Source of the DNA: Brachionus manjavacas
Lineage: Eukaryota > Rotifera > Eurotatoria > Ploima > Brachionidae
Assembly: GCA_019054805.1 (NCBI GenBank)
Contig: JAHQIY010000049.1
Span: forward strand, 1-64,000
Direction: 5' to 3'
Length of the DNA: 64,000 nt
The notes under the pieces are model-generated. The model did not search any database. It was not told the origin of the DNA and saw only the letters and a program-made list of their open reading frames with translations. The position numbers and the translations under genes were made by a program. Below are positions 1 to 59,300 of this stretch, in pieces (position 1 is the stretch's first letter; the number at the start of each line of letters is the position of its first letter).

Positions 1-1410
1 AAATTAAAGATATTTGAAATGAAAGATAAATTAAAAAATCATTATTATTTCAATTTTTTTTTTCTTGAAAAAAAATTTCAATGCAAAATCTTAAAGTTTT
101 TTGATATGATCAATTTTAATTTTTTACAAAACCAAAAATCAAACCATTCGTAAATCAGATCACGAAAAATGCTTTCGCAATACTCTTGAATCGTAGAGAA
201 TAACAATTCGTCTGGAAGATACCAGATTGTCAAAAATTTTGATGTTTGGTTTTATTAATAAGCAACTAAACATTTTTAAAATGAAAGATAAAGTTTAAAG
301 TCATTCTTATTTCAAACTTTTTTTTCTTGAAAAAAAATTTTCAATGCAAAATCTTAAAGTTTCTAGATATGATCTATTTAAATTTTTTACAAAATCAAAA
401 ATCAAACCATTCGTAAATCAGATCACGAAAAATGCTTTCGCATGACTCTAGAATCGTAAAGAATAACAATTCGTCTGGAAGATACCAGATTGTCAAAAAT
501 TTTGATGTTTGGTTTTATTAATAAGCAACTAAACATTTTTAAAATGAAAGATAAAGTTTAAAGTCATTCTTATTTCAATTTTTTTTTTTTGAAAAAAAAA
601 TTTTCAATGCAAAATCTTAAAGTTTTTAGATATGATCAATTTAAATTTATTACAAAACCAAAAATCAAACCATTCGTAAATCAGATCACGAAAAATGCTT
701 TTGCATGACTCTAGAATCGAAAAGAATAACAATTCGTCTGGAAGATCCATATTTGTCAAAAATTTTAATATTTCGTTTTATTAATAAGCAAATAAACATA
801 TTTGTAATGAAAGATAAAGTAAAAAATCAGTCTTATTTTAAAATTTTTTTTCTTGAAAAAAAATTTCAATGCAAAATCTTAAAGTTTTTAGATATGATCA
901 ATTTAAATTTATTACAAAACTAAAAATCAAACCATTCGTAAATCAGATCACGAAAAATGCTTTCGCATGACTCTAGAATCGTAAAGAATAACAATTCGTC
1001 TGGAAGATAACAGATTGTCAAAAATTTTGATGTTTCGTTTTATTAATAAGAAATTAAAGATATTTGAAATGAAAGATAAAGCAAAAAATCATTCTTATTT
1101 TAAACTTTTTTTTCTTGAAAAAAAATTTCATTGCAAAATCTTAAAGTTTTTAGATATGATCAATTTAAATTTTTTACAAAATCAAAAATCAAACCATTCG
1201 TAAATCAGATCACGAAAAATGCTTTCGCAATACTCTTGAATCGTAGAGAATAACAATTCGTCTGGAAGATACCAGATTGTCAAAAATTTTGATGTTTGGT
1301 TTTATTAATAAGCAACTAAACATTTTTAAAATGAGAGATAAAGTTTAAAGTCATTCTTATTTCAAACTTTTTTTTCTTGAAAAAAAATTTTCAATGCAAA
1401 ATCTTAAAGT
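1..1410 (+). repeat. Four-monomer-offset duplication
   Basis: Sequence at 1 to about 350 matches 1,051 to about 1,400 with an exact 1,050-bp offset (four monomers). Shared rare markers are AAATTAAAGATATTTGAAATG at 1 and 1,051, and the unusual box GCAATACTCTTGAATCGTAGAG at 177-198 and 1,227-1,248, which lacks both TCTAGA and ATG. The match fades after about 1,420, so only part of a tetramer pair is preserved or the earlier part lies outside the window. Confidence 0.85.
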
Positions 1411-4400
1411 TTTTTGATTTAATCAACTTAAATTTATTACAAAACTAAAAATCAAACCATTCGTAAATCAGATCACGAAAAATGCTTTCGCATGACTCTA
1501 GAATCGTAGAGAATAACAATTCGTCTGGCAGATACCAGATTTTCAAAAATTTTGATGTTTCGTTTTAATAATAAGCAAATAAACATATTTCTTATGAAAG
1601 ATAAAGTAAAAAATCATTATTATTTCAAACTTTTTTTTCTTGAAAAAAAATTTTCAATGCAAAATCTTAAAGTTTTTAGATTTGATCAATTTAAATTTAT
1701 TACAAATCTTAAAATCAAACCATTCGTAAATCAGATCACGAAAAATGCTTTTGCATGACTCTAGAATCGAAAAGAATAACAATTCTTCTGGAAGATTCCA
1801 GTTTGACAAAAATTTTTATGTTTCGTTTTATTAATAAGCAAATAAACATATTTGAAATGAAAGATAAAGTAAAAAATCAGTCTTATTTCGAACCTCTTTT
1901 TCTTGAAAAAAAATTTTCAATGCAAAATCTTAAAGTTTTTAGATATGATCAATTTAAATTTATTACAAAACCAAAAATCAAACCATTCGTAAATCAGATC
2001 ACGAAAAATGCTTTTGCATGACTCTAGAATCGAAAAGAATAACAATTCGTCTGGAAGATGTTAGATTGTCAAAAATTTTGAGGTTTCGTTTTATTAATAA
2101 GCAACTAAACATTTTTAAAATGAGAGATAAAGTTTAAAGTCATTCTTATTTCAAACTTTTTTTTCTTGAAAAAAAATTTTCAATGCAAAATCTTAAAGTT
2201 TTTAGATATGATCAATTTAAATTTATTACAAAACCAAAAATCAAATCATTCGTAAATCAGATCACGAAAAATGCTTTCGCATGATTCTAGAATCGTAAAG
2301 AATAACAATTCGTCTGGCAGATACCAGATTTTCAAAAATTTTGATGTTTGGTTTTATTAATAAGCAACTAAACATTTTTAAAATGAAAGATAAAGTTTAA
2401 AGTCATTCTTATTTCAAACTTTTTTTTCTTGAACAAAAATTTTCAATGCAAAATCTTAAAGTTTTTAGATATGATCAATTTAAATTTATTACAAAACCAA
2501 AAATCAAACCATTCGTAAATCAGATCACGAATAATGCTTTTGCATGACTCTAGAATCGTAAAGAATAATAATTCGTCTGGAAGATACCAGATTTTCAAAA
2601 ATTTTGATGTTTGTTTTTATAAATAAACAAATAAACATATTTCTAATGAAAGATAAAGTAAAAAATCAGTCTTATTTCGAACCTCTTTTTCTTGAAAAAA
2701 AATTTTCAATGCAAAATCTTAAAGTTTTTAGATATGATCAATTTAAATTTATTACAAAACCAAAAATCAAATCATTCGTAAATCAGATCACGAAAAATGC
2801 TTTCGCATGATTCTAGAATCGTAGAGAATAACAATTCGTCTGGAAGATACCAGATTGTCAAAAATTTTGACGTTTCGTTTTATTAATAAGCAAATAAACA
2901 TATTTGTAATGAAAGATAAATTAAAAAATCATTCTTATTTTAAACTATTTTTTCTTGAAAAAAAATTTTCAATGCAAAATCTTAAAGTTTTTAGATATGA
3001 TCAATTTAAATTTATTACAAAACCAAAAATCAAACCATTCGTAAATCAGATCACGAATAATGCTTTTGCATGACTCTAGAATCGTAAAGAATAATAATTC
3101 GTCTGGAAGATGCCAGATTTTCAAAAATTTTGATGTTTCGTTTTATTTTAATAAGCAAATATATATGTAATGAAAGATAAAGTAAAAAATCATTCGTATT
3201 TCAAACTTTTTTTCTTGAAAAAAAATTTTCAATGATAAATCTTAAAGTTTTTAGATATGATCAATTTAAATATATTACAAGACCAAAAATCAAACCATAC
3301 GTAAATCAGATCACGAATAATGCTTTTGCATGACTCTAGAATCGTAAAGAATAATAATTCGTCTGGAAGATACCAGATTTTCAAAAATTTTGACGTTTCG
3401 TTTTATTAATAAGCAAATAAACATATTTGTAATGAAAGATAAAGTAAAAAATCATTCTTATTTCAAACTTTTTTTTCTTGAAAAATAATTTTCAATGCAA
3501 AATCTTAAAGTTTTTAGAAATGATCAATTTAAATTTATTACAAAACCAAAAATCAAACCATTCGTAAATCAGATCACGGAAAATGCTTTTGCATGACTCT
3601 AGAATCGAAAAGAATAACAATTCCTCTTGAAGATACCAAGTTTTCAAAAATTTTGATGTTTCGTTTTTATAAATAAGCAAATAAACATATTTCTAATGAA
3701 AGATAAAGTAAAAAATCATTCTTATTTCAAACTTTTTTATTGAAAAAAAATTTTCAATGCAAAATCTTAAAGTTTTTAGAAATGATCAATTTAAATTTTA
3801 TTACAAAACCAAAAATCAAACCATTCGTAAATCAGATCACGAAAAATGCTTTTGCATGACTCTAGAATCGGAAAGAATAACAATTCTTCTGGAAGATACC
3901 AGATTGTCAGTAATTTTAATGTTTGTTTTTATTAATAAGCAAATAAACATATTTGAAATGAAAGATAAACTAAAAAATCAGTCTTATTTCGAACTTTTTT
4001 TCTTTAAAAAAATTTTCAATGCAAAATCTTAAAGTTTTTAGATATGATCAATTTAAATTTATTACAAAACCAAAAATCAAACCATTCGTAAATCAGATCA
4101 CGAAAAATGCTTTCGCATGACTCTAGAATCGTAGAGAATAACAATTCGTCTGGCAGATACCAGATTGTCAGTAATTTTGATGTTTGGTTTTATTAATAAG
4201 CAACTGAACATTTTTAAAATGAAAGATAAAGTTTAAAGTCATTCTTATTTCAAACTTTTTTTTCTTGAAAAAAAATTTCAATGCAAAATCTTAAAGTTTT
4301 TAGATATGATCAATTTAAATTTATTACAAAACCAAAAATCAAACCATTCGTAAATCAGATCACGAAAAATGCTTTTGCATGACTCTAGAATCGTAAAGAA

Positions 4401-7000
4401 TAACAATTCGTCTGGAAGATACCAGATTGTCAAAAATTTTGATGTTTCGTTTTATTAATAAGCAAATAAACATATATGAAGTGAAAGATAAAGTAAAAAA
4501 TCATTCTTATTTCAACTTTTTCTTTTGAAAAAAAAATTTTCAATGCAAAATCTTAAAGTTTTGAGATATGATCAATTTAAATTTATTACAAAACCAAAAA
4601 TCAAACCATTCGTAAATCAGATCACGAAAAATGATTCGCATGACTCTAGAATCGTAAAGAATAACAATTCGTCTGGCAGATACCAGATTTTCAAAAATTT
4701 TGATGTTTCGTTTTTATTAATAAGCAAATAAACATATTTCTAATGAAAGATAAAGTAAAAAATTTATATTATTTCAAACTTTTTTTTCTTGAAAAAATAT
4801 TTCAATGCAAAATCTTAAAGTTTTTAGAAATGATCAATTTTAATTTATTACGAAACCAAAAATAAAACCATTCGTAAATCAGATCACGAAAAATGCTTTT
4901 GCATGACTCTAGAATCGTAAAGAATAACAATTCGTCTGGAAGATACCAGATTGTCAAAAATTTTGAAGTTTCGTTCTATTAATAAGCAAATAAACATATT
5001 TGTAATGAAAAGATAAAGTAAAAAATCATTCTTATTTCAAAACTTTTTCTGAAAAAAATTTTCAATGCAAAATCTTAAAGTTTTTAGATATGATCAATTT
5101 TAAATTTTATTACAAAACCAAAAATCAAACCATTCGTAAATCAGATCACGAAAAATGCTTTTGCATGACTCTAGAATCGGAAAGAATAACAATTCTTCTG
5201 AAGATACCAGATTGTCAAAAATTTTGAAGTTTGTTTTTATTAATAAGCAAATAAACATATTTGTAATGAAAGATAAAGTAAAAATCATTCTTATTTTTAA
5301 ATTTTTATTCTTGAAAAAAAATTTTCAATGCAAAATCTTAAAGTTTTTAGATATGATCAATTTAAATTTATTACAAAACCAAAAATCAAACCATTCGTAA
5401 ATCAGATCACGAAAAATGCTTTTGCATGACTCTAGAATCGTAAAGAATAACAATTCGTCTGGAAGATCAGTATTTGTCAAAAATTTTAATATTTCGTTTT
5501 ATTAATAAGCAAATAAACATATTTGTAATGAAAGATAAAGTAAAAAATCAGCGTTATTTTAAAATATTTTTTCTTGAAAAAAAATTTCAATGCAAAATCT
5601 TAAAGTTTTTAGATATGATCAATTTTAATTTATTACAAAACCAAAAATCAAACCATTCGTAAATCAGATCACGAAAAATGCTTTTGCATGACTCTAGAAT
5701 CGTAAAGAATAACAATTCGTCTGGAAGATAACATATTGTAAAAAATTTTAATGTTTGTTTTTATAATTAATTATATAAACATATTTCTAATGAAAGATAA
5801 TGTAAAAAATCATTCTTATTTTAAACTTTTTTTTCTTGAAAAAAAATTTCAATGCAAAATCTAAAAGTTTTTAGAAATGATCAATTTAAATTTATTCAAA
5901 AAATAAAAATTAAACAATTCGTAAATCAGATCACGAATAATGCTTTTGCATGACTCTAGAATCGTAAAGAATAACAATTCGTCTGTAAGATACCAGATTG
6001 TCAGAAATTTTGATGTTTCGTTTTACTAATAAGCAAATAAACATATTTGTAATGAAAAGATAAAGTAAAAAATCATTCTTAATTCAATTTTTTTATTCTT
6101 GAACAAAAATTTTCAATGCAAAATCTTAAAGTTTTTAGATATGATCAATTTAAATTTATTACAAAACCAAAAATCAAACCATTCGTAAATCAGATCACGA
6201 AAAATTTTTTTGCATGACACTAGAATCGTAAAGAATAACAATTCGTCTGGAAGATACCAGATTGTCAAAAATTTTGATGTTTGGTTTTATTAATAAGCAA
6301 CTAAACATATTTGAAATGAAAGATAAAGTTTAAAGTCATTCTTATTTCAAACTTTTTTTTCTTGAAAAAAAATTTTCAATGCAAAATCTTAAAGTTTTTA
6401 GAAATGATCAATTTAAATTTTATTACAAAACAAAAAATCAAACCATTCGTAAATCAGATCACGAAAAATGCTTTTGCATGACTCTAGAATCGTAAAGAAT
6501 AACAATTCGTCTAGAAGATACCAGATTGTCAAAAATTTTAATGTTTGTTTTTATAAATAATTAAATAAACATATTTCTAATGAAAGATAAAGTAAAAAAT
6601 CATTCTTATTTCAAACTTTTTTTTCTTGAAAAAAAATTTCAATGCAAAATCTTAAAGTTTTTAGAAATGATCAATTTAAATTTATTACAAAACCAAAAAT
6701 CAAACCATTCGTAAATCAGATCACGGAAAATGCTTTTGCATGACTCTAGAATCGAAAAGAATAACAATTCGTTTGGAAGATACCAGATTGTCAAAAATTT
6801 TGAAGTTTCGTTCTATTAATAAGCAAATAAACATATTTCTAATGAAAGATAAAGTATAAAATCATTCTTATTTCAAACTTTTTTATTGAAAAAAAATTTT
6901 CAATGCAAAATCTTAAAGTTTTTAGATATGATCAATTTAAATTTATTACAAAACCAAAAATCAAACCATTCGTAAATCAGATCACGAAAAATGCTTTTGC

Positions 7001-7500
7001 ATGACTCTAGAATCGAAAAGAATAACAATTCGTCTGGAAGATACCAGATTTTCAAAAATTTTGACGTTTCGTTTTATTAATAAGCAAATAAACATATTTG
7101 AAATGAACGAAAATGTAAAAAATCATTCTTATTTCAAACTTTTTTTTCTTGAAAAAAAATTTTCAATGCAAAATCTTAAAGTTTTTAGAAATGATCAATT
7201 TAAATTTATTACAAAACCAAAAATCAAACCATTCGTAAATCAGATCACGAAAAATGCTTTTGCATGACTCTAGAATCGAAAAGAATAACAATTCGTCTGG
7301 AAGATACCAGATTGTCAGTAATTTTAATGTTTGTTTTTATAAATAAGCAAATAAACATATTTCTAATGAAAGATAAAGTAAAAAATCAGTCTTATTTTAA
7401 AATTTTTTTCTTGAAAAAAAATTTACAATGCAAAATCTTTAATTTTAAAGATTTGATCAATTTAAATTTATTACAATACCAAAAATCAAACCATTCGTAA
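7001..7500 (+). other. Overlapping open frames, judged not to be genes
   Basis: Open frames at 7,001-7,267 (88 codons) and 7,264-7,500 overlap by ATGA, as in translationally coupled genes. This arises because each monomer carries GCATGACTC, and because in these copies the codon after TCG is AAA, where most copies have TAA. The monomer length of 263 is not a multiple of 3, so each following frame is different. One-base changes in the A run switch the tail between KKFSMQNLKVF and KKFQCKILKFL in about equal numbers across the array. No domain, signal peptide or family is recognisable. I treat all such frames in the window as repeat by-products. Confidence 0.9.
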
Positions 7501-8677
7501 ATCAGATCACGGAAAATGCTTTTGCAAGACTCTAGAATCGTAAAGAATAACAATTCGTCTTGAAGATACCAGATTTTCAAAAATTTTGATGTTTCGTTTT
7601 TATAAATAAGCAAATAAACATATTTCTAATGAAAGATAAAGTAAAAAATCATTCTTATTTCAATTTTTTTTTTCTTGAAAAAAATTTTCAATGCAAAATC
7701 TTAAATTTTTTGATATGATCAATTTAAATTTATTATAAAACCAAAAATCAAACCATTCGTAAATCAGATCACGAAAAATGCTTTCGCATGACTCTAGAAT
7801 CGTAAAGAATAACAATTCGTCTGGCAGATACCAGATTTTCAAAAATTTTGATGTTTCGTTTTACTAATAAGCAAATAAACATATTTTAAATGAAAGATAT
7901 AGTAAAAAATCATTCTTATTTCAATTTTTTTATTCTTGAAAAAAAATTTTCAATGCAAAATCTTAAATTTTAAAGATATGATCAATTTAAATTTATTACA
8001 AAACCAAAAATCAAACCATTCGTAAATCAGATCACGAATAATGCTTTTGCATGACTATAGAATCGTAAAGAATAATAATTCGTCTGGAAGATACCAGATT
8101 GTCAAAAATTTTAATGTTTCGTTTTATTAATAAGCAAATAAACATATTTCTAATGAAAGATAAAGTAAAAAATCATTCTTATTTCAAACTTTTTTATTGA
8201 AAAAAAATTTTCAATGCAAAATCTTAAAGTTTTTAGATATGATCAATTTAAATTTATTACAAAACCAAAAATCAAACCATTCGTAAATCAGATCACGAAT
8301 AATGCTTTTGCATGACTATAGAATCGTAAAGAATAATAATTCGTCTGGAAGATACCAGATTGTCAAAAATTTTAATGTTTCGTTTTATTAATAAGCAAAT
8401 AAACATATTTGTAATGAAAAGATAAAGTAAAAAATCATTCTTATTTCAAACTTTTTTTCTTGAAAAAAATTTTCAATGCAAAATCTTAAAGTTTTTAGAA
8501 ATGATCAATTTAAATTTATTACAAAACCAAAAAATCAAACCATTCGTAAATCAGATCACGAAAAATGCTTTTGCATGACTCTAGAATCGTAAAAGAATAA
8601 CAATTCGTCTGGAGATACCAGATTTTTCAAAAATTTTGATGTTTGTTTTTATAAATGAGCAAATAAACATATTTCTT

Positions 8678-8740
8678 ATGAAAAATAAAGAAAAAAATCA
8701 TTCTTATTTTTAACTTTTTTTTCTCGAATAAAAATTTTCA
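8678..8740 (+). repeat. Rare variant monomer shared with the right arm (copy at 22,921-22,985)
   Basis: Linked rare changes: ATGAAAAATAAAGAAAAAAATC in place of the usual ATGAAAGATAAAGT, and TTCTCGAATAAAAATTTTC in place of the plain A run. The reverse complement of the same combination occurs at about 22,921-22,985. A second left-arm copy with CTCGAATAAAA lies near 9,252. Confidence 0.8.
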
Positions 8741-8879
8741 ATGCAAAATCTTAAATTTTTTTAGATATGATCAATTTAAATTTATTATAACAACCAAAAT
8801 CAAACCATTCGTAAATCAGATCACGAAAAATGCTTTCGCATGACTCTAGAATCGTAAAGAATAATAATTCGTCTGGAAG

Positions 8880-8900
8880 ATACCATGGTGATCTGTCAAA
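8880..8900 (+). repeat. Small insertion in a monomer
   Basis: GAAGATACCATGGTGATCTGTCAAAA replaces the usual GAAGATACCAGATTGTCAAAA or GAAGATCCATATTTGTC. The extra bases create CCATGG and disrupt the TCTGG/CCAGA dyad in this copy. I saw it only once. Confidence 0.7.
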
Positions 8901-9140
8901 AATTTTAATATTTCTTTTTATTAATAAGCAAATAAACATATTTGAAATGAAGGATAAAGTAAAAAATCATTCTTATTTCAAACTTTTTTTTCTTGAAAAA
9001 AATTTTCAATGCAAAATCTTAAAGTTTTTAGATATGATCAATTTAAATTTATTACAAAACCAAAAATCAAACCATTCGTAAATCAGATCACGAAAAATGC
9101 TTTTGCATGACTCTAGAATCGTAAAGAATAACAATTCGTC

Positions 9141-9210
9141 TGGAAGATCCATATTTGTCAAAAATTTTAATGTTTCGTTTTATTAATAAGCATATAAACA
9201 TATTGAAATG
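9141..9210 (+). repeat. Rare variant monomer shared with the right arm (copy at 56,246-56,314)
   Basis: Three rare changes are linked here: GATCCATATTTGTC, AAGCATATAAACATATTGAAATG and TTTTAATGTTTCG. The reverse complement of this stretch, 69 nt, occurs at 56,246-56,314 with no difference that I can see. The two copies lie in opposite arms, 47 kb apart. Confidence 0.85.
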
Positions 9211-12200
9211 AAGATAAAGAAAAAAATCATTCTTATTTTAAACTTTTTTTTCTCGAATAAAAATTTTCAATGCAAAATCTTAAAGTTTTTTAGATATGAT
9301 CAATTTAAATTTATTACAAAACCAAAAATCAAACCATTCGTAAATCAGATCACGAAAAATGCTTTTGCATGACTCTAGAATCGTAAAGAATAACAATTCG
9401 TCTTGAAGATACCAGATTTTCAAAAATTTTGATGTTTCGTTTTTAAAAATAAGCAAATAAACATATTTCTAATGAAAGATAAAGTAAAAAATCATTCTTA
9501 TTTCAAATTTTTTCTTGAAAAATTTTCAATGCAAAATCTTAAATTTTTTGATATGATCAATTTAAATTTATTATAAAACCAAAAATCAAACCATTCGTAA
9601 ATCAGATCACGAAAAATGCTTTGCATGACTCTAGAATCGGAAAGAATAACAATTCTTCTGGAAGATAACTGATTTTCAAAAATTTTGAAGTTTCGTTTTA
9701 TAAATAAGCAAATAAACATTATTTGAAATGAAAGATAAAGTAAAAAATCAATTCTTATTTTCAAACTTTTATTTCTTGAAAAAAAATTTCCAATGCAAAA
9801 TCTTAAAGTTTTTAGATATGATCAATTTAAATTTATTACAATACCAAAAATCAAACCATTCGTAAATCAGATCACGAAAAATGCTTTTGCATGACTCTAG
9901 AATCGTAAAGAATAACAATTCGTCTGGAAGATACCAGATTTTCAAAAATTTTGACGTTTCGTTTTATTAATAAGCAAATAAACATATTTGTAATGAAAGA
10001 TAAAGTAAAAAATCAGTCTTATTTCGAACTTTTTTTTCTTGAAAAAAAATTTTCAATGCAAAATCTTAAATTTTAAAGAAATGATCAATATAAATTTATT
10101 ACAAAACCAAAAATAAAACCATTCGTAAATCAGATCACGAAAAATGCTTTTGCATGACTCTAGAATCGAAAAGAATAACAATTCGTCTGGAAGATCCATA
10201 TTTGTCAAAAATTTTAATATTTCTTTTTATTAATAAGCAAATAAACATATTTGAAATGAAGGATAAAGTAAAAAATCATTCTTATTTCAAACTTTTTTTT
10301 CTTGAAAAAAAATTTTCAATGCAAAATCTTAAAGTTTTTAGAAATGATCAATTTAAATTTATTACAAAACCAAAAATCAAACCATTCGTAAATCAGATCA
10401 CGAAAAATGCTTTTGCAAGACTCTAGAATCGTAAAGAATAACAATTCGTCTAGAAGATACCAGATTGTCAAAAATTTTAATGTTTGTTTTTATAAATAAT
10501 TAAATAAACATATTTCTAATGAAAGATAAAGTAAAAAATCATTCTTATTTTCGAACTTTTTTTTCTTAAAAAAAAATTTTCAATGCAAAATCTTAAATTT
10601 TTTAGATATGATCAATTTAAATTTATTACAAAACCAAAAATCAAACCATTCGTAAATCAGATCACGAAAAATGCTTTTGCATGACTCTAGAATCGGAAAG
10701 AATAACAATTCTTCTGGAAGATACCAGATTTTCAAAAATTTTGACGTTTCGTTTTATTAATAAGCAAATAAACATATTTGTAATGAAAGATAAAGTAAAA
10801 AATCATTCTTATTTTAAACTATTTTTTCTTGAAAAAAAATTTTCAATGTAAAATCTTAAAGTTTTTAGATATGATCAATTTAAATTTATTACAAAACCAA
10901 AAATCAAATCATTCGTAAATCAGATCACGAAAAATGCTTTCGCATGATTCTAGAATCGTAGAGAATAACAATTCGTCTGGAAGATACCAGATTGTCAAAA
11001 ATTTTGATGTTTGGTTTTATTAATAAGCAACTAAACATTTTTAAAATGAGAGATAAAGTTTAAAGTCATTCTTATTTCAAACTTTTTTTTCTTGAAAAAA
11101 AATTTTCAATGCAAAATCTTAAAGTTTTTTGAAATGATGACAATTTAAATTTTATTACAAAACTAAAAATCAAACCATTCGTAAATCAGATCACGAAAAA
11201 TGCTTTTGCATGACTTCTAGAATCGTAAAGAATAACAATTCGTCTGGAATATACCAGATTGTCAAAAATTTTGATGTTTGGTTTTATTAATAAGCAACTA
11301 AACATTTTTAAAATGAGAGATAAAGTAAAAAATCATTCTTATTTCAAACTTTTTTCTTGAAAAAATTTTCAATGCAAAATCTTAAAGTTTTTAGATATGA
11401 TCAATTTAAATTTATTACAAAACCAAAAATCAAACCATTCGTAAATCAGATCACGAAAAATGCTTTTGCATGACTCTAGAATCGTAAAGAATAACAATTC
11501 GTCTGGAAGATACCAGATTGTCAAAAATTTTAATGTTTGTTTTTATTAATAAGCAAATAAACATATTTGTAATGAAAGATAAAGTAAAAAATCAGTTCTT
11601 ATTTCAAACTTTTTTTTCTTGAAAAAATTTTCAATGCAAAATCTTAAAGTTTTTAGATATGATCAATTTAAATTTTATTACAAAACCAAAAATCAAACCA
11701 TTCGTAAATCAGATCACGAAAAATGCTTTGCATGACTCTAGAATCGTAAAGAATAATAATTCGTCTGTAAGATACCAGATTGTCAGTAATTTTGATGTTT
11801 GTTTTTATAAATAAGCAAATAAACATATTTCTAATGAAAGATAAAGTAAAAAATCATTCTTATTTCAAATTTTTTTTTCTTAAAAAAAAAATTTTTAATG
11901 CAAAATCTTAAAGTTTTTAGATATGATCAATTTAAATTTATTACAATACCAAAAATCAAACCATTCGTAAATCAGATCACGGAAAATGCTTTTGCAAGAC
12001 TCTAGAATCGTAAAGAATAACAATTAGTCTGTAAGATACCAGATTGTCAGTAATTTTGATGTTTGGTTTTATTAATAAGCAAATAAAAATTTTTGAAATG
12101 AAAGATAAAGTTTAAAGTCATTCTTATTTCAAACTTTTTTTTCTTGAAAAAAAATTTTCAATGCAAAATCTTAAAGTTTTTTGATATGATCAATTTAAAT

Positions 12201-13570
12201 TTATTACAAAACCAAAATTCAAACCATTCGTAAATCAGATCACGAAAAATGCTTTCGCATGACTCTAGAATCGGAAAGAATAACAATTCTTCTGGAAGAT
12301 ACCAGATTTTCAAAAATTTTGACGTTTCGTTTTATTAATAAGCAAATAAACATATTTGTAATGAAAGATAAAGTAAAAAATCAGTCTTATTTCAAACTTT
12401 TTTTTCTTGAAAAAAAATTTTCAATGCAAAATCTTAAAGTTTTTAGATATGATCAATTTAAATTTATTACAAAACCAAAAATCAAACCATTCGTAAATCA
12501 GATCACGAAAAATGCTTTTGCATGACTCTAGAATCGTAAAGAATAACAATTCGTCTGGAAGATACCAGATTGTCAAAAATTTTGATGTTTCGTTTTATTA
12601 ATAAGCAAATAAACATATTTGTAATGAAAGATAAAGTAAAAAATCATTCTTATTTCAAACTTTTTTCTCTTGATCAAAAATTTTCAATGAAAAATCTTAA
12701 AGTTTTTAGATATGATCAATTTAAATTTATTACAAAACCAAAAATCAAACCATTCGTAAATCAGATCACGAAAAATTCTTTTCTTAGACTCTAGAATCGT
12801 AAAGAATAACAATTCGTCTGGCAGATACCAGATTTTCAAAAATTTTGATGTTTCGTTTTACTAATAAGCAAATAAACATACTTGAAATGAAAGATAAAGT
12901 AAAAAATCATTCTTATTTCAAACTTTTTTTTCTTGAAAAAAATTTTCAATGCAAAATCTTAAAGTTTTTAGATATGATCAATTTAAATTTATTACAAAAC
13001 CAAAAATCAAACCATTCGTAAATCAGATCACGAAAAATGATTCGCATGACTCTAGAATCGTAAAGAATAACAATTCGTCTGGCAGATACCAGATTGTCAA
13101 AAATTTTGATGTTTCGTTTTATTAATAAGCAAATAAACATATTTGAAATGAAAGATAAAGTAAAAAATCATTCTTATTTCAAACTTTTTTTTCTTGAAAA
13201 AAAATTTCAATGCAAAATCTTAAAGTTTTTAGATATGATCAATTTAAATTTATTACAAAACCAAAAATCAAACCATTCGTAAATCAGATCACGAAAAATG
13301 CTTTTGCATGACTCTAGAATCGTAAAGAATAACAATTCGTCTGGAAGATACCAGATTTTCAAAAATTTTGACGTTTCGTTTTATTAATAAGCAAATAAAC
13401 ATATTTGTAATGAAAGATAAAGTAAAAAATCATTCTTATTTCAAACTTTTTTATTGAAAAAAAATTTTCAATGCAAAATCTTAAAGTTTTTAGATATGAT
13501 CAATTTAAATTTATTACAAAACCAAAAATCAAACCATTCGTAAATCAGATCACGAAAAATGCTTTTGCAT

Positions 13571-13833
13571 GACTCTAGAATCGTAAAGAATAACAATTCG
13601 TCTGGAAGATACCAGATTGTCAAAAATTTTGATGTTTCGTTTTATTAATAAGCAAATAAACATATTTGTAATGAAAGATAAAGTAAAAAATCATTCTTAT
13701 TTCGAACTTTTTCTTCTTGAAAAAAAATTTTTAATGCAAAATCTTAAAGTTTTTAGATATGATCAATTTAAATTTATTACAAAACCAAAAATCAAACCAT
13801 TCGTAAATCAGATCACGAAAAATGCTTTTGCAT
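13571..13833 (+). repeat. Representative left-arm monomer, 263 bp
   Basis: A complete copy in the + orientation bounded by two GACTCTAGAATCG boxes. It matches the right-arm reference copy closely once reverse-complemented. Its private differences lie around the T/A tract, where TTTTTCTTCTTG replaces the pure T run and a C of the usual TTTTCAATG is T. It shows that both arms belong to one family and differ in orientation only. Confidence 0.93.
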
Positions 13834-16800
13834 GACTCTAGAATCGTAAAGAATAACAATTCGTCTGGAATATACCAGATTGTCAAAAATTTTAATGTTT
13901 CGTTTTATTAATAAGCAAATAAACATATTTGAAATGAAAGATAAAGTAAAAAATCAGTCTTATTTTAAAACTTTTTTTTCTTGAAAAAATTTTTAATGCA
14001 AAATCTTAAAGTTTTTAGAAATGATCAATTTAAATTTATTACAAAACCAAAAATCAAACCATTCGTAAATCAGATCACGAAAAATGCTTTTGCATGACTC
14101 TAGAATCGTAAAGAATAATAATTCGTCTGGAAGATACCAGATTTTCAAAAATTTTAATATTTCGTTTTATTAATAAGCAAATAAACATATTTCTAATGAA
14201 AGATAAAGTAAAAAATCATTCTTATTTCAAACTTTTTTATTGATAAAAAATTTTCAATGCAAAATCTTAAAGTTTTTAGATATGATCAATTTAAATTTAT
14301 TACACAACCAAAAATCAAACCATTCGTAAATCAGATCACGAATAATGCTTTTGCATGACTCTAGAATCGAAAAGAATAACAATTCGTCTGGAAGATTCCA
14401 GTTTGACAAAAATTTTTATGTTTCGTTTTATTAATAAGCAAATAAACATATTTGAAATGAAAGATAAAGTAAAAAATCATTCTTATTTCAAACTTTTTTT
14501 TCTTGAAATAAAATTTTTAATGCAAAATCTTAAAGTTTTTAGATATGATCAATTTAAATTTATTACAAAACCAAAAATCAAACCATTCGTAAATCAGATC
14601 ACGAATAATGCTTTTGCATGACTCTAGAATCGTAAAGAATAACAATTCGTCTGGAAGATACCAGATTGTCAAAAATTTTGATGTTTCGTTTTATTAATAA
14701 GCAAATAAACATATTTGTAATGAAAGATAAAGTAAAAACCAGTCTTATTTCCCATTTTTTTTCTTGAAAAAAAATTTCAATGCAAAATCTTAAAGTTTTT
14801 AGATATGATCAATTTAAATTTATTACAATACCAAAAATCAAACCATTCGTAAATCAGATCACGAAAAATGCTTTTGCATGACTATAGAATCGTAAAGAAT
14901 AATAATTCGTCTGGAAGATACCAGATTGTCAAAAATTTTAATGTTTCGTTTTATTAATAAGCAAATAAACATATTTGTAATGAAAGATAAAGTAAAAAAT
15001 CATTCTTATTTCAAACTTTTTTTCTTGAAAAAAAATTTTCAATGCAAAATCTTAAAGTTTTTAGATATGATCAATTTAAATTTATTACAAAACCAAAAAT
15101 CAAACCATTCGTAAATCAGATCACGAAAAATGCTTTTGCATGACTCTAGAATCGTAAAGAATAACAATTCGTCTGGAAGATACCAGATTGTCAGTTATTT
15201 TGATGTTTGTTTTTATTAATAAGCAAATAAACATATTAGTAATGAAAGATAAAGTAAAAAATCAGTCTTATTTCAAACTTTTTCTTGAAAAAAATTTTCA
15301 ATGCAAAATCTTAAAGTTTTTAGATATGATCAATTTAAATTTATTACAAAACCAAAAATCAAACCATTCGTAAATCAGATCACGAAAAATGCTTTTGCAT
15401 GACTCTAGAATCGTAAAGAATAACAATTCGTCTGGAAGATACCAGATTGTCAAAAATTTTGATGTTTCGTTTTATTAATAAGCAAATAAACATATTTGTA
15501 ATGAAAGATAAAGTAAAAAATCAGTCTTATTTCGAACCTCTTTTTCTTGAAAAAAAATTTTCAATGCAAAATCTTAAAGTTTTTAGATATGATCAATTTA
15601 AATTTATTACAAAACCAAAAATCAAACCATTCGTAAATCAGATCACGAAAAATGCTTTTGCATGACTCTAGAATCGTAAAGAATAACAATTCGTCTGGAA
15701 GATACCAGATTGTCAAAAATTTTGATGTTTCGTTTTATTAATAAGCAAATAAACATATTTGTAATGAAAGATAAAGTAAAAAATCAGCCTTATTTTAAAA
15801 TTTTTTTTAATGAAAAAAATTTTCAATGCAAAATCTTAAAGTTTTTAGATATGATCAATTTAAATTTATTACAAAACCAAAAATCAAACCATTCGTAAAT
15901 CAGATCACGAAAAATGCTTTTGCATGACTCTAGAATCGTAAAGAATAACAATTCGTCTGGAAGATACCAGATTGTCAGTAATTTTGATGTTTGTTTTTAT
16001 AAATAAGCAAATAAACATATTTCTTATGAAAGATAATGTAAAAAATCATTCTTATTTTAAACTTTTTTTTCTTGAAAAAAAATTTTCAATGCAAAATCTT
16101 AAAGTCTTTTAGATATGATCAATTTAAATTTATTACAAAACCAAAAATCAAACCATTCGTAAATCAGATCACGAAAAATGCTTTTGCAAGACTCTAGAAT
16201 CGTAAAGAATAACAATTCGTCTGGAAGATACCAGATTGTCAAAAATTTTGATGTTTCGTTTTATTAATAAGCAAATAAACATATTTCTTATGAAAGATAA
16301 GGTAAAATTCAGTCTTATTTCAAACTTTTTTTCTTGAAAAATATTTCAATGCAAAATCTTAAAGTTTTTAGATATGATCAATTTAAATTTATTACAAAAC
16401 CAAAAATCAAACCATTCGTAAATCAGATCACGGAAAATGCTTTTGCATGACTCTAGAATCGTAAAGAATAACAATTCGTCTGGAAGATACCAGATTGTCA
16501 GTAATTCTGACGTTTCGTTTTATTAATAAGCAAATAAACATATTTCTTATGAAAGATAAAGTAAAAAATCATTCTTATTTCAAACTTTTTTTTCTTGAAA
16601 AAAAATTTTCAATGCAAAATCTTAAAGTTTTTAGATATGATCAATTTAAATTTATTACAAAACCAAAAATCAAACCATTCGTAAATCAGATCACGAAAAA
16701 TGCTTTTGCAAGACTCTAGAATCGTAAAGAATAACAATTCGTCTAGAAGATACCAGATTGTCAAAAATTTTAATGTTTGTTTTTATTAATAAGCAAATAA

Positions 16801-16971
16801 ACATATTTCTAATGAAAGATAAAGTAAAAAATCATTCTTATTTCAAACTTTTTTTCTTGAAAAAAAATTTCAATGCAAAATCTTAAAGTTTTTAGAAATG
16901 ATCAATTTAAATTTATTACAAAACCAAAAATCAAACCATTCGTAAATCCGATCACGAAAAATGCTTTTGCA

Positions 16972-16983
16972 TCTTCACTACGA
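16972..16983 (+). repeat. Divergent TCTAGA box in the last left-arm monomer
   Basis: The usual GCATGACTCTAGAATCG is replaced by GCATCTTCACTACGAATCG. The TCTAGA palindrome and the ATG are lost in this copy, the closest complete box to the junction on the left side. I noticed no other copy with this form. Confidence 0.8.
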
Positions 16984-17088
16984 ATCGTAAAGAATAATAA
17001 TTCGTCTGGAAGATACCAGATTGTCAAAAATTTTAATGTTTCGTTTTATTAATAAGCAAATAAACATATTTCTAATGAAAGATAAAGT

Positions 17089-17180
17089 AAAAAAATTTAA
17101 ATTGATCATATTTCAAACTTTTTTTCTTGAAATAAAAGTTTGCATTGAAAATTTTATTTCAAGAAAAAAAAGTTTGAAAT
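17089..17180. other. Orientation-switch junction of the array
   Basis: Left-arm sequence runs normally to GATAAAGT plus an A run (to about 17,095). Then AAATTTAAATTGATCATAT (17,093-17,111) appears, which belongs to the opposite orientation. At 17,109 the sequence returns to + orientation (TATTTCAAAC and the T run, to 17,137). From about 17,139 (TTTGCATTG) it is in minus orientation for good. That makes three orientation changes in under 60 bp. Short overlaps are visible at two of them: AAA near 17,093-17,095 and TAT at 17,109-17,111. The short inverted insert replaces the usual TCATTCTT. This pattern is what template switching or microhomology-mediated joining leaves; that mechanism is inference. 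Confidence 0.9.
17110..17180. repeat. Fold-back inverted repeat at the junction
   Basis: Left arm 17,110-17,137 (28 nt) and right arm 17,152-17,180 (29 nt) are reverse complements apart from one base in the homopolymer (7 T against 8 A). The 14-nt spacer is GTTTGCATTGAAAA. Both arms carry the uncommon CTTGAAATAAAA form of the tract in place of the usual uninterrupted A run, so one arm looks like a copy of the other. The same form is seen in a left-arm copy near 14,505-14,516. Confidence 0.9.
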
Positions 17181-17296
17181 AAGAATGATTTTTTACTTTA
17201 TCTTTCATTACAAATATGTTTATTTGCTTATTAATAAAACGAAACATCAAAATTTTTGACAATCTGGTATCTTCCAGAAGAATTGTTATTCTTTCC

Positions 17297-17325
17297 GATT
17301 CTAGATTCATGCAAAAAAGATTTTT
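17297..17325 (-). repeat. Divergent box in the first right-arm monomer
   Basis: The common right-arm form GATTCTAGAGTCATGCAAAAGC appears here with CTAGATTCATGC and then CAAAAAAGATTTTTCG. Two private changes therefore sit in the first box to the right of the junction, matching the divergent box on the left side. Confidence 0.75.
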
Positions 17326-17892
17326 CGTGATCTGATTTACGAATGGTTTGATTTTTGGTTTTGTAATAAATTTAAATTGATCATATCCAAAAACTTTAAG
17401 ATTTTGCATTGAAAATTTTTTTTCAAGAAAAAAAGTTTGAAATAAGAATGATTTTTTACTTTATCTTTCATTACAAATATGTTTATTTGCTTATTAATAA
17501 AACGAAACATCAAAATTTTTGACAATCTGGTATCTTCCAGACGAATTGTTATTCTTTACGATTCTAGAGTCATGCAAAAGCATTTTTCGTGATCTGATTT
17601 ACGAATGGTTTGATTTTTGGTTTTGTAATAAATTTAAATTGATCATATCTAAAAACTTTAAGATTTTGCATTGAAAATTTTTTTTCAAGAAAAAAAAGTT
17701 TGAAATAAGAATGATTTTTTACTTTATCTTTCATTAGAAATATGTTTATTTGCTTATTTATAAAAACGAAACATCAAAATTTTTGAAAATCTGGTATCTT
17801 CCAGACGAATTGTTATTCTTTACGATTCTAGAGTCATGCAAAAGCATTTTTCGTGATCTGATTTACGAATGGTTTGATTTTTGGTTTTGTAA

Positions 17893-54800: not shown

Positions 54801-56245
54801 ATGGTTTGATTTTTGGTTTTGTAATAAATTTAAATTGATCATATCTAAAAAACTTTAAGATTTTGCATTGAAAATTTTTTTTCAAGAAAAAAAAATTTGA
54901 AATAAGAATGATTTTTTACTTTATCTTTCATTAGAAATATGTTTATTTGCTTATTTATAAAAACAAACATCAAAATTTTTGACAATCTGGTATCTTCCAG
55001 ACGAATTGTTATTCTTTACGATTCTAGAGTCATGCGAAAGCATTTTTCGTGATCTGATTTACGAATGGTTTGATTTTTGGTTTTGTAATAAATTTAAATT
55101 GATCATATCTAAAAACTTTAAGATTTTGCATTGAAAATTTTTTTTTCAAGAAAAAAAAGTTTGAAATAAGAATGATTTTTTTACTTTATCTTTCATTTCA
55201 AATATGTTTATTTGCTTATTTATAAAACGAAACATCAAAATTTTTGACAATCTGGTATGTTCCAGACGAATTGTTATTTTTACGATTCTAGAGTCATGCG
55301 AAAGCATTTTCTGTTATCTGATTTACGAATGGTTTGATTTTTAATTTTGTACTAAATTTAAGTTGATCATATCTAAAAACTTTAAGATTTTGCATTGAAA
55401 ATTTTTTTTTCAAGAAAAAATAGTTTGAAATAAGAATGATTTTTTACTTTTTCTTTCATTTCAAATATGTTTATTTGCTTATTAATAAAACGAAACATCA
55501 AAATTTTTGACAATCTGGTATCTTCCAGACGAATTGTTATTCTTTACGATTCTAGAGTCATGCGAAAGCATTTTTCGTGATCTGATTTACGAATGGTTTG
55601 ATTTTTGGTTTTGTAATAAATTTAAATTGATCATATCTAAAAACTTTAAGATTTTGCATTGAAAATTTTTTTTTCAAGAGAAAAAAGTTTGAAATAAGAA
55701 TGATTTTTTACATTATCTTTCATTTCAAATATGTTTATTTGCTTATTTATAAAAACAAACATCAAAATTACTGACAATCTGGTATCTTCCAGACGAATTG
55801 TTATTCTTTACGATTCTAGAGTCATGCGAAAGCATTTTCTGTCATCTGATTTACGAATGGTTTGATTATTTGTATTGTAATAAATTTAAATTGATCATTT
55901 CTAAAAACTTTAAGATTTTGCATTGAAAATTTTTTTTCAAGAAAAAAAGTTTGAAACAAGAATGATTTTTTACTTTATCTTTCATTACAAATATGTTTAT
56001 TTGCTTATTTATAAAAACAAACATCAAAATTACTGACAATCTGGTATCTTCCAGACGAATTGTTATTCTTTACGATTCTAGAGTCATGCGAAAGCATTAT
56101 TTGTGATCTGATTTACGAATGGTTTGATTTTTGGTTTTGTAATAAATTTAAATTGATCATTTCTAAAAACTTTAAGATTTTGCATTGAAATTTTTTTTCA
56201 AGAAAAAATATTTTTATAATAAGACTGATTTTTCACTTTATCTTT

Positions 56246-56314
56246 CATTTCAATATGTTTATATGCTTATTAATAAAACGAAACATTAAAATTTTTGACA
56301 AATATGGATCTTCC
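56246..56314 (-). repeat. Left-arm rare variant found in the right arm
   Basis: CATTTCAATATGTTTATATGC, CGAAACATTAAAATT and GACAAATATGGATC are linked. This is the reverse complement of the left-arm segment 9,141-9,210. Confidence 0.85.
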
Positions 56315-59300
56315 AGACGAATTGTTATTCTTTACGATTCTAGAGTCATGCAAAAGCATTTTTCGTGATCTGATTTACGAATGGTTTGATTTTTGGTTTT
56401 GTAATAAATTTAAATTGATCATATCAAAAAACTTTAAGATGTTGCATTGAAAATTTTTTCAAGAAAAAATAGTTTGAAAAAAGACTGATTTTTTACTTTT
56501 TCTTTCATTACAAATATGTTTATTTGCTTATATATAAAAACAAACATCAAAATTTTTGAAAATCTGGTATCTTCCAGACGAATTGTTATTCTTTACGATT
56601 CTAGAGTCATGCGAAAGCATTTTCTGTGATCTGATTTACGAATGGTTTGATTTTTTGGTTTTGTAAAAAATTTAAATTGATCATATCTAAAAACTTTAAG
56701 ATTTTGCATTGAAAATTTTTTTTCAAGAAAAAAAAGTTTGAAATAAGAATGATTTTTTACTTTATCTTTCATTGGAAATTTGTTTATTTGCTTATTTATA
56801 AAAACAAACATCAAAATTACTGACAATCTGGTATCTTCCAGACGAATTGTTATTCTTTACGATTCTAGAGTCATGCGAAAGCATTTTTCGTGATCTGATT
56901 TACGAATGGTTTGATTTTTGGTTTTGTAATAAATTTAAATTGATCATATCTAAAAACTTTAAGATTTTGCATTGAAAATTTTTTCTCAAGAAAAAAATTG
57001 AAATAAGAATGATTTTTTACTTTATCTTTCATTAGAAATATGTTTATTTGCTTATTTATAAAAACAAACATTAAAATTTTTGACAATCTGGTATCTTCCA
57101 GACGAATTGTTATTCTTTACGATTCTAGAGTCATGCGAAAGCATTTTTCGTGATCTGATTTACGAATGGTTTGATTTTTGGTTTTGTAATAAATTTAAAT
57201 TGATCATATCTAAAAACTTTAAGATTTTGCATTGAAAATTTTTTTTTCAAGAAAAAAAAGTTTGAAATAAGAATGATTTTTTACTTTATCTTTCATTTCA
57301 AACATGTTTATTTGCTTATTTATAAAAACAAAATTCAAAATTACTGACAATCTGGTATCTTCCAGACGAATTGTTATTCTTTACGATTCTAGAGTCATGC
57401 AAAAGCATTTTTCGTGATCTGATTTACGAATGGTTTGATTTTTTGGTTTTGTAATAAATTTAAATTGATCATATCTAAAAACTTTAAGATTTTGCATTGA
57501 AAATTTTTTTTCAAGAAAAAAAAGTTTGAAATAAGAATGATTTTTTACTTTATCTTTCATTTCAAATATCTTGAATTTCTTATTAATAAAACGAAACATC
57601 AAAATTTTTGACAATCTGTTTTCTTCCAGACGAATTGTTATTCTTTACGATTCCAGAGTCATGCGAAAGCATTATTCGTGATCTGATTTACGAATGGTTT
57701 GATTTTTGGTTTTGTACTAAATTTAAGTTGATCATATCTAAAAACTTTAAGATTTTGCATTGAAAATTTTTTTTTCAAGAAAAAATAGTTTGAAATAAGA
57801 ATGATTTTTTACTTTTTCTTTCATTTCAAATATGTTTATTTGCTTATTAATAAAACCAAACATCAAAATTTTTGACAATCTGGTATCTGCCAGACGAATT
57901 GTTATTCTCTACGATTCTAGAGTCATGCGAAAGCATTTTTCGTGATCTGATTTACGAATGGTTTGATTTTTGGTTTTGTAATAAATTTAAATTGATCATA
58001 TCTAAAAACTTTAAGATTTTGCATTGAAAATTTTTTTCAAGAAAAAAAAGTTTGAAATAAGAATGATTTTTTACTTTATCTTTCATTGGAATTTTGTTTA
58101 TTTGCTTATTTATAAAAACAAACATCAAAATTTTTGACAATCTGGTATCTTCCAGACGAATTGTTATTCTTTACGATTCTAGAGTCATGCGAAAGCATTA
58201 TTCGTGATCTGATTTACAAATGGTTTGAATTTTGGTTTTGTAATAAATTTAAATTGATCATATCTAAAAACTTTAAGATTTTGCATTGAAATTTTTTTTC
58301 AAGAAAAAAAGTTTGAAATAAGAATGATTTTTTACATTATCGTTCATTTCAAATATGTTTATTTGCTTATTTATAAAAACAAACATCAAAATTACTGACA
58401 ATCTGGTATCTTCCAGACGAATTGTTATTCTTTACGATTCTAGAGTCATGCAAAAGCATTTTTCGTGATCTGATTTACGAATGGTTTGATTTTTGGTTTT
58501 GTAATAAATTTAAATTGATCATATCTAAAAACTTTAAGATTTTGCATTGAAAATTTTTTTCAAGAAAAAAGTTTGAAATAAGACTGATTTTTCCTTTATC
58601 TTTCATTACAAATATTTTTTTTTGCTTATTAATAAAACGAAACATCAAAATTTTTGACAATCTGGTATCTTCCAGACGAATTGTTATTCTTTACGATTCT
58701 AGAGTCATGCGAAAGCATTTTCCGTGATCTGATTTACGAATGGTTTGATTTTTGGTTTTGTAATAAATTTAAATTGATCATATCTACAAACTTTAAGATT
58801 TTGCATTGAAAATTTTTTTTCAAGAAAAAAAAGTTGAAATAAGACTGATTTTTTACTTTATCTTTCATTACAAATATGTTTATTTGCTTATTTATAAAAA
58901 CGAAACATCAAAATTTTTGAAAATCTGGTATCTTCAAGACGAATTGTTATTCTTTACGATTCTAGAGTCATGCAAAAGCATTTTCCGTGATCTGATTTAC
59001 GAATGGTTTGATTTTTGGTTTTGTAATAAATTTAAATTGATCATATCTAAAAACTTTAAGATTTTGCATTGAAAATTTTTTTTCAAGAAAAAAAGTTTGA
59101 AATAAGAATGATTTTTTACTTTATCTTTCATTAGAAATATGTTTATTTGCTTATTTATAAAAACAAACATCAAAATTTTTGACAATCTGGTATCTTCCAG
59201 ACGAATTATTATTCTTTACGATTCTATAGTCATGCAAAAGCATTTTCTGTGATCTGATTTACGAATGGTTTGATTTTTTGGTTTTGTAATAAATTTAAAT

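Follow-up and report, generated by a model that had tools for sequence, protein, structure and literature searches.

The window, by which we mean the whole 64,000-nt stretch of DNA analyzed, consists of a single satellite family with a 263-bp monomer and has an A+T content of 76.8%. TRF reported a 263-bp period on the plus side at 5–17094 (65.1 copies) and the reverse complement of this repeat at 17139–64000 (178.7 copies). Together with jump decoding and an alignment of the full monomers (n = 64 on the left, n = 178 on the right), this gives a plus-oriented array at 1–17092 and a minus-oriented array at 17139–64000 that starts from about monomer position 103–105. Each array is clipped by an edge of the window. 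The majority consensus sequences of the two sides differ in one alignment column, and mean pairwise identity between monomers is 0.909 on the left, 0.937 on the right, and 0.921 between sides. The signs of both GC skew and AT skew reverse at the junction because the orientation of the array changes there.

We also followed identity to the consensus along the window in blocks of eight monomers. Identity is highest at approximately 23.5–29.8 kb (0.974–0.978) and drops toward the ends of the window (0.931–0.947 on the left and 0.936–0.950 on the far right), a profile as in a homogenized core with older flanks. There is no step in identity at the junction (0.958 on its left, 0.964 on its right), so the junction sits on the shoulder of one homogenized domain and not between two unlike arrays. 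Within the right array (17139–64000), rare variants recur at a lag of five monomers (z = 6.5), and single pairs of monomers, for example those at 17507 and 19082, are 99.6% identical; these are traces of local block duplication. A literature search using the repeat length found no published name for a 263-bp satellite, and a text match of monomer pieces (n = 6, 14–17 bases) against the literature led to one rice-marker paper. Searches for relatives of the locus gave no matches with a 21-mer against viral contigs and none with 786 bp in a blastn search against phages. An 18-mer compared with genome contigs gave five single matches, all in bacterial records, which is about the chance level (7.5 expected with equal base use).

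The window was decoded with a Viterbi algorithm that used the monomer profile in both orientations and a fixed cost for each jump to any position. In this jump alignment the turn takes up about 50 bp, over which the orientation goes from plus to minus, back to plus, and again to minus. At a penalty of –18 the segments are plus to 17092, minus at 17093–17108, plus at 17109–17140, and minus from 17141. Exact matches were used to extend the pieces beyond these boundaries, and the switch points together span about 17089–17141. The first-pass annotation had described a change from + to –, – to +, and + to – that contained a short inverted fragment, all at 17089–17180. The three steps and the fragment are both there; as for the range, the switch points end at about 17141 and the stretch to 17180 also includes the right arm of a hairpin.

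The first piece, at 17093–17111 on the minus strand, is 19 nt long and is the reverse complement of monomer positions 122–140. At its site the plus monomer is without positions 56–62 (TCATTCT). The second piece (17109–17137, plus strand) is 29 nt long, corresponds to monomer positions 63–92, carries a rare A-to-T variant, and forms the left hairpin arm. The two pieces overlap by TAT at 17109–17111. A single G at 17138 departs from the consensus in either orientation, and GTTTGCATTG, the sequence around it, occurs once in the window. By eye, a fourth switch via AAAAGTTTG is possible as the source of this G, but it would add one base and we did not adopt it. This G is the first base of a 14-nt spacer between the hairpin arms (17138–17151), and the right arm follows at 17152–17181 on the minus strand. 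The right arm is the complement of 17109–17137 except for one homopolymer base and has the same rare variant. In monomer coordinates, the path is plus to about 55, inverted from 140 to 122, plus from 63 to 92, and minus from about 105. Allowing up to one mismatch, AAATTTAAATTGATCATAT occurs 238 times in the window, 178 times on the plus strand and 60 times on the minus strand. All minus copies are at or to the left of 16896, and the plus copies begin at 17093, where the first copy is isolated from a regular series beginning at 17368.

The uniform array around the seam supplies its own null model. We scanned 16600–17700 with a free number of jumps, taking the best log-likelihood for each number, and compared the results with 200 clean joins built from real pieces of the left and right arrays. 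The gains for one to six jumps were 923.8, 23.9, 22.9, 10.2, 13.1, and 8.1 nats. The corresponding maxima in the clean joins were 15.7 nats for the second jump and 15.8 nats for the third. Taken jointly, jumps two and three gained 46.8 nats at the real junction, a value reached by 0 of the 200 clean joins (maximum 31.5, 95% quantile 16.6). Because these gains lie above those of all clean joins, jumps two and three are real; later jumps are not demonstrable. We then varied the monomer set and the parameters (four sets by four parameter pairs), with sets that included those without monomers within 2.2 kb, from the left only, and from the right only. Three orientation changes were returned in all 16 settings, with boundaries that shifted by up to four bases. 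The 19-nt piece at 17093–17111 thus reverse-complements nearby sequence at a level above the clean-alignment null, as a four-point template switch does. If the assembly is right, the junction is real in the sequence as given and stands well above chance.

Apart from the junction, no jump was decoded in the 64 kb at a penalty of –18. At –15 one extra piece of 10 nt at 8886–8895 (TGGTGATCTG) was decoded as inverted; it also appears at –12 and is absent at –18, and we regard it as a weak candidate for a micro-inversion. A penalty of –12 also gave a small plus-to-plus shift at 11137/11138. Closer to the turn, the last full plus monomer has a divergent box at 16971–16985, where ATCTTCACTACGAAT, unique in the window, stands in place of the consensus. 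We considered 16973–16981 as a further inverted piece of 9 nt and rejected it, the gains of jumps four and five (given above) being within the control range. The first minus monomer is likewise divergent in the corresponding part (17290–17330), and a weak same-strand jump at 17316/17317 was seen at the lowest penalty.

The bases at which the pieces meet are informative about how the seam was closed. At the first switch the microhomology is two A when compared with the consensus, and it would be three A with a seven-A plus donor like the copies at 55175, 60951, and 62795. An AAA microhomology proposed earlier thus depends on a seven-A donor; a TAT microhomology, also proposed, is found in full (3 nt) at the second switch. 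At the third switch there is no microhomology. The insert has the form of a templated insertion, made of local pieces of 19 and 29 nt with end homology of 2–3 nt on the left and 0 nt on the right.

A stretch of about 90 bp in a single 263-bp unit contains all the switch points, and they fall in the region of the monomer where the T8/A8 tracts are. Among the short inverted repeats in the consensus, the strongest (73–81/84–92 and 82–88/93–99) are also at the turn. The plus strand is left at monomer position 55 and resumed at 63, eight positions on; random landing within eight positions has a chance of about 0.015, calculated post hoc as a simple proportion. The last switch comes down no more than 13 positions from the mirror point (chance about 0.05, also a post hoc simple proportion). 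Thus, the first two switches return near the point of departure and the third involves no return. On the left, the closest copy of the 19-nt piece, at 16896, has a mismatch, and exact copies begin at 16635 leftward and at 17368 rightward, which indicates that the donor was not strictly adjacent. Individual donors cannot be named because more than 240 near-identical units are present.

Both hairpin arms carry a T inside an A8 tract. The 12-nt pattern around this variant has 137 copies, with A in 133 and T in four: the two arms and the copies at 14502 and 45979. Outside the arms T therefore occurs at 2 of 135 comparable sites, and a T in the second arm would be expected at about 1.5% under independence. 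Because the variant is common to both arms yet rare elsewhere, one arm was likely copied from the other, either at the event or later. Against such copying, one homopolymer is of unequal length in the two arms (seven T versus eight A), although each of these lengths is frequent in both arrays. The predicted energy of the junction hairpin is –27.3 kcal/mol (z = –7.3), which was matched by 0 of 200 shuffles. This hairpin exists because the orientation changes, since any plus piece beside its minus copy will pair, and its stability was left out as independent evidence. A search of 3.5 kb against Rfam returned nothing besides a sub-threshold match to mir-5444 (30.5 bits versus a gathering threshold of 90); we rejected an RNA identity and read this as the match of an A+T-rich hairpin.

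It is possible, but on balance not probable, that the seam arose in two events, a simple inverted join and then a short-range switch that replaced 7 nt by the 19-nt inverted piece. The variant in both arms may then stem from later copying between them. Such a history is supported by the 19-nt piece, which by itself makes up a full four-point event inside a single monomer (55, 140, 122, 63). The junction hairpin is also strong, and hairpins provoke switches of this kind, which are described as widespread in apes (Walker et al., 2021; PMC7954356). However, with no other jump in the 64 kb at –18, it would be a coincidence for two independent ones to fall within 50 bp of each other, unless the hairpin gave rise to the second.

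A different history is predicted if replication folded back (of the MMBIR/FoSTeS or ODIRA type) and copied the array in reverse, which would leave an extended inverted duplication around a small loop. The short inverted repeats at the turn and the rare variant common to the 29/30-nt arms would suit this, and it makes a prediction about the flanks. The mirror identity of the flanks is 93.2% over 260 bp, 95.4% over 520 bp, and 94.7% over 1040 bp. For these three lengths, the left flank was matched as well or better by 64 of 177, 8 of 176, and 26 of 174 other right segments, and the right flank by 26 of 60, 11 of 59, and 14 of 57 other left segments. In a separate comparison of 200 pairs at about 530 bp, the mirror pair ranked in the top 5.5%. 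An eroded palindrome finds its best evidence in the 520-bp values, which are rather high, but the match is ordinary at 260 bp and unremarkable at 1040 bp. A mirror diagonal of rare variants is also absent at the junction (z from –1.2 to 1.2 at offsets 61–66), and no top antidiagonal was found at the expected sum of 34,290. Mirrored flanks that extend well past the loop, as in a palindromic duplication, are thus not seen, and we consider replication fold-back of the array unlikely. A variant of it, an old palindrome blurred by homogenization, would still be compatible with these data. A simple fold-back copy of the array does not fit the flanks: outside the 29/30-nt arms, many unrelated register-matched pairs resemble each other at least as closely as the two sides do.

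The arrays on the two flanks do not mirror each other with near-identity, and this disfavors both a recent long palindrome and a fold-back read artifact. We consider it quite improbable that the junction is an artifact of assembly or reads, be it a chimeric read, a fold-back read, or a misjoin of two contigs. Satellite arrays are difficult to assemble, which gives some weight to this explanation. However, a fold-back read predicts near-identical flanks and is unlikely at the mirror identities observed. A plain misjoin does not predict a two-piece insert that is bounded by microhomology and shares a rare variant, and the consensus identity in eight-monomer blocks is smooth across the junction.

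One large-scale signal was found in these comparisons. An inverted offset of 182 pairs the left array at 1.5–16.8 kb with the right array at 48.4–63.6 kb with a rare-variant z of 5.97, which was reached in 0 of 300 block permutations (largest 5.76). With row and column means removed z was 4.58, and with broader variant sets it was 2.4–2.9 and no longer above other offsets. The best run of four pairs at this offset scored 8.61, and a direct-order control scored 8.60. The signal comes mainly from two neighboring monomers on each side, at 8912–9438 and 56020–56543, which have rare variants in common in mirrored order. A direct-order run with the right monomer 56281 and the left monomer 8912 scores equally to the mirrored run. 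We do not claim a large-scale mirror copy from this.

Taken together, the junction is probably, although by no means certainly, the breakpoint of an inverted join within the satellite array that was sealed by a patchwork of about 46 nt of locally copied satellite. An end on the minus-array side would have broken or stalled, folded back with a loop of 14 nt, and used its own terminal 30 nt, rare variant included, as the template. Next, the copying end would have picked up 19 nt from satellite close by, in the opposite direction, before the patched end joined the plus array through 2–3 nt of microhomology. The third switch would be the lasting inversion. In four-point notation the first two switches would read 1-4-3-2 from left to right and 3-2-1-4 from right to left.

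Serial template switching during replication repair had been suggested for this site. Copying from nearby templates remains the best reading because of the shared rare variant, the return to nearly the same monomer position, and the confinement of the switches to about 90 bp. The attribution to replication repair was not borne out, because a double-strand-break route (fold-back synthesis and end-joining) leads to a product of this kind as well, and microhomology is absent from the third switch. The same absence is a point against fold-back priming, since there is no overlap at the third switch to act as an inverted-microhomology primer. Both replication switching and break end-joining would be consistent with an inverted join that was patched by copying short local templates. 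The junction has no evident function and records a repair event, and the seam is explained by known processes.

Changes in the orientation of satellite arrays are also known from complete centromere assemblies of humans and plants. To our knowledge, they are rarely read at the level of bases. The record here is legible, with two pieces that alternate in direction, microhomology at two switches, and a rare variant common to the arms, and it neatly illustrates, base by base, a patched inversion seam of an ordinary kind. The same jump decoding is applicable to the satellite arrays of complete genomes, where it could address whether inversions are usually clean or patched.

The closest outward likeness is to the macro-dyads of Tribolium madens (PMC13081366), where plus and minus subarrays also meet at an aberrant, hairpin-capable unit. 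That satellite is different from the 263-bp repeat and its sites occur in thousands of near-identical copies (2044 INV_1a and 3486 INV_1b), as opposed to one in our 64 kb. We did not class the junction with such sites because there is one turn in the window. It is extremely improbable that it is a standing, amplified inversion site of this type kept for its hairpin: the form is the same, but the copy is single and the change of orientation by itself accounts for the hairpin. It is also very doubtful, if somewhat less so, that we are looking at one copy of a recurrent inversion site amplified with its 30-bp hairpin, the patched seam being an inherited unit. Were this true, the 263-bp satellite would form macro-dyads outside the published cases, which according to the authors are documented only in Tribolium (PMC13081366).

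As here, the turn in ODIRA inverted triplications (PMC10766186) and in small inverted triplications (PMC13334657) lies at short inverted repeats separated by a small spacer. Both need inverted copies of one sequence on both sides, which the flanks here are not demonstrably, and no second junction was found in the 64-kb window.

Insertions at yeast breaks are closer in scale. Yu et al. (2024; PMC11724301) report inverted fold-back insertions of 5–34 bp, as well as double insertions that derive from a single locus and are in inverted orientation, with 0–4 nt of homology to the ends and 2–11 nt between pieces. As here, the pieces are tens of bases long, of opposite orientation, and of the same local origin, and the small end homologies are alike (2–3, 0, and 3 nt here). 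By contrast, the yeast break was induced, double insertions were mainly found in mutants, and fold-back there uses inverted microhomology, which is lacking at our third switch. The two joined ends are also in inverted orientation here.

The first two switches resemble the four-point switches of Walker et al. (PMC7954356), in which 1-4-3-2 needs switching between strands and 3-2-1-4 allows switching within a strand. In those events copying returns to the original strand, whereas here the third switch leaves the array inverted, and the comparison here was with the monomer consensus and not with an ancestral sequence. In both, a few bases have given way to a short inverted piece of nearby origin. 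T8 is enriched around the switch points described in that study, much like the T8/A-rich surroundings of this junction, and 1-4-3-2, the order seen here, is among the majority patterns there.
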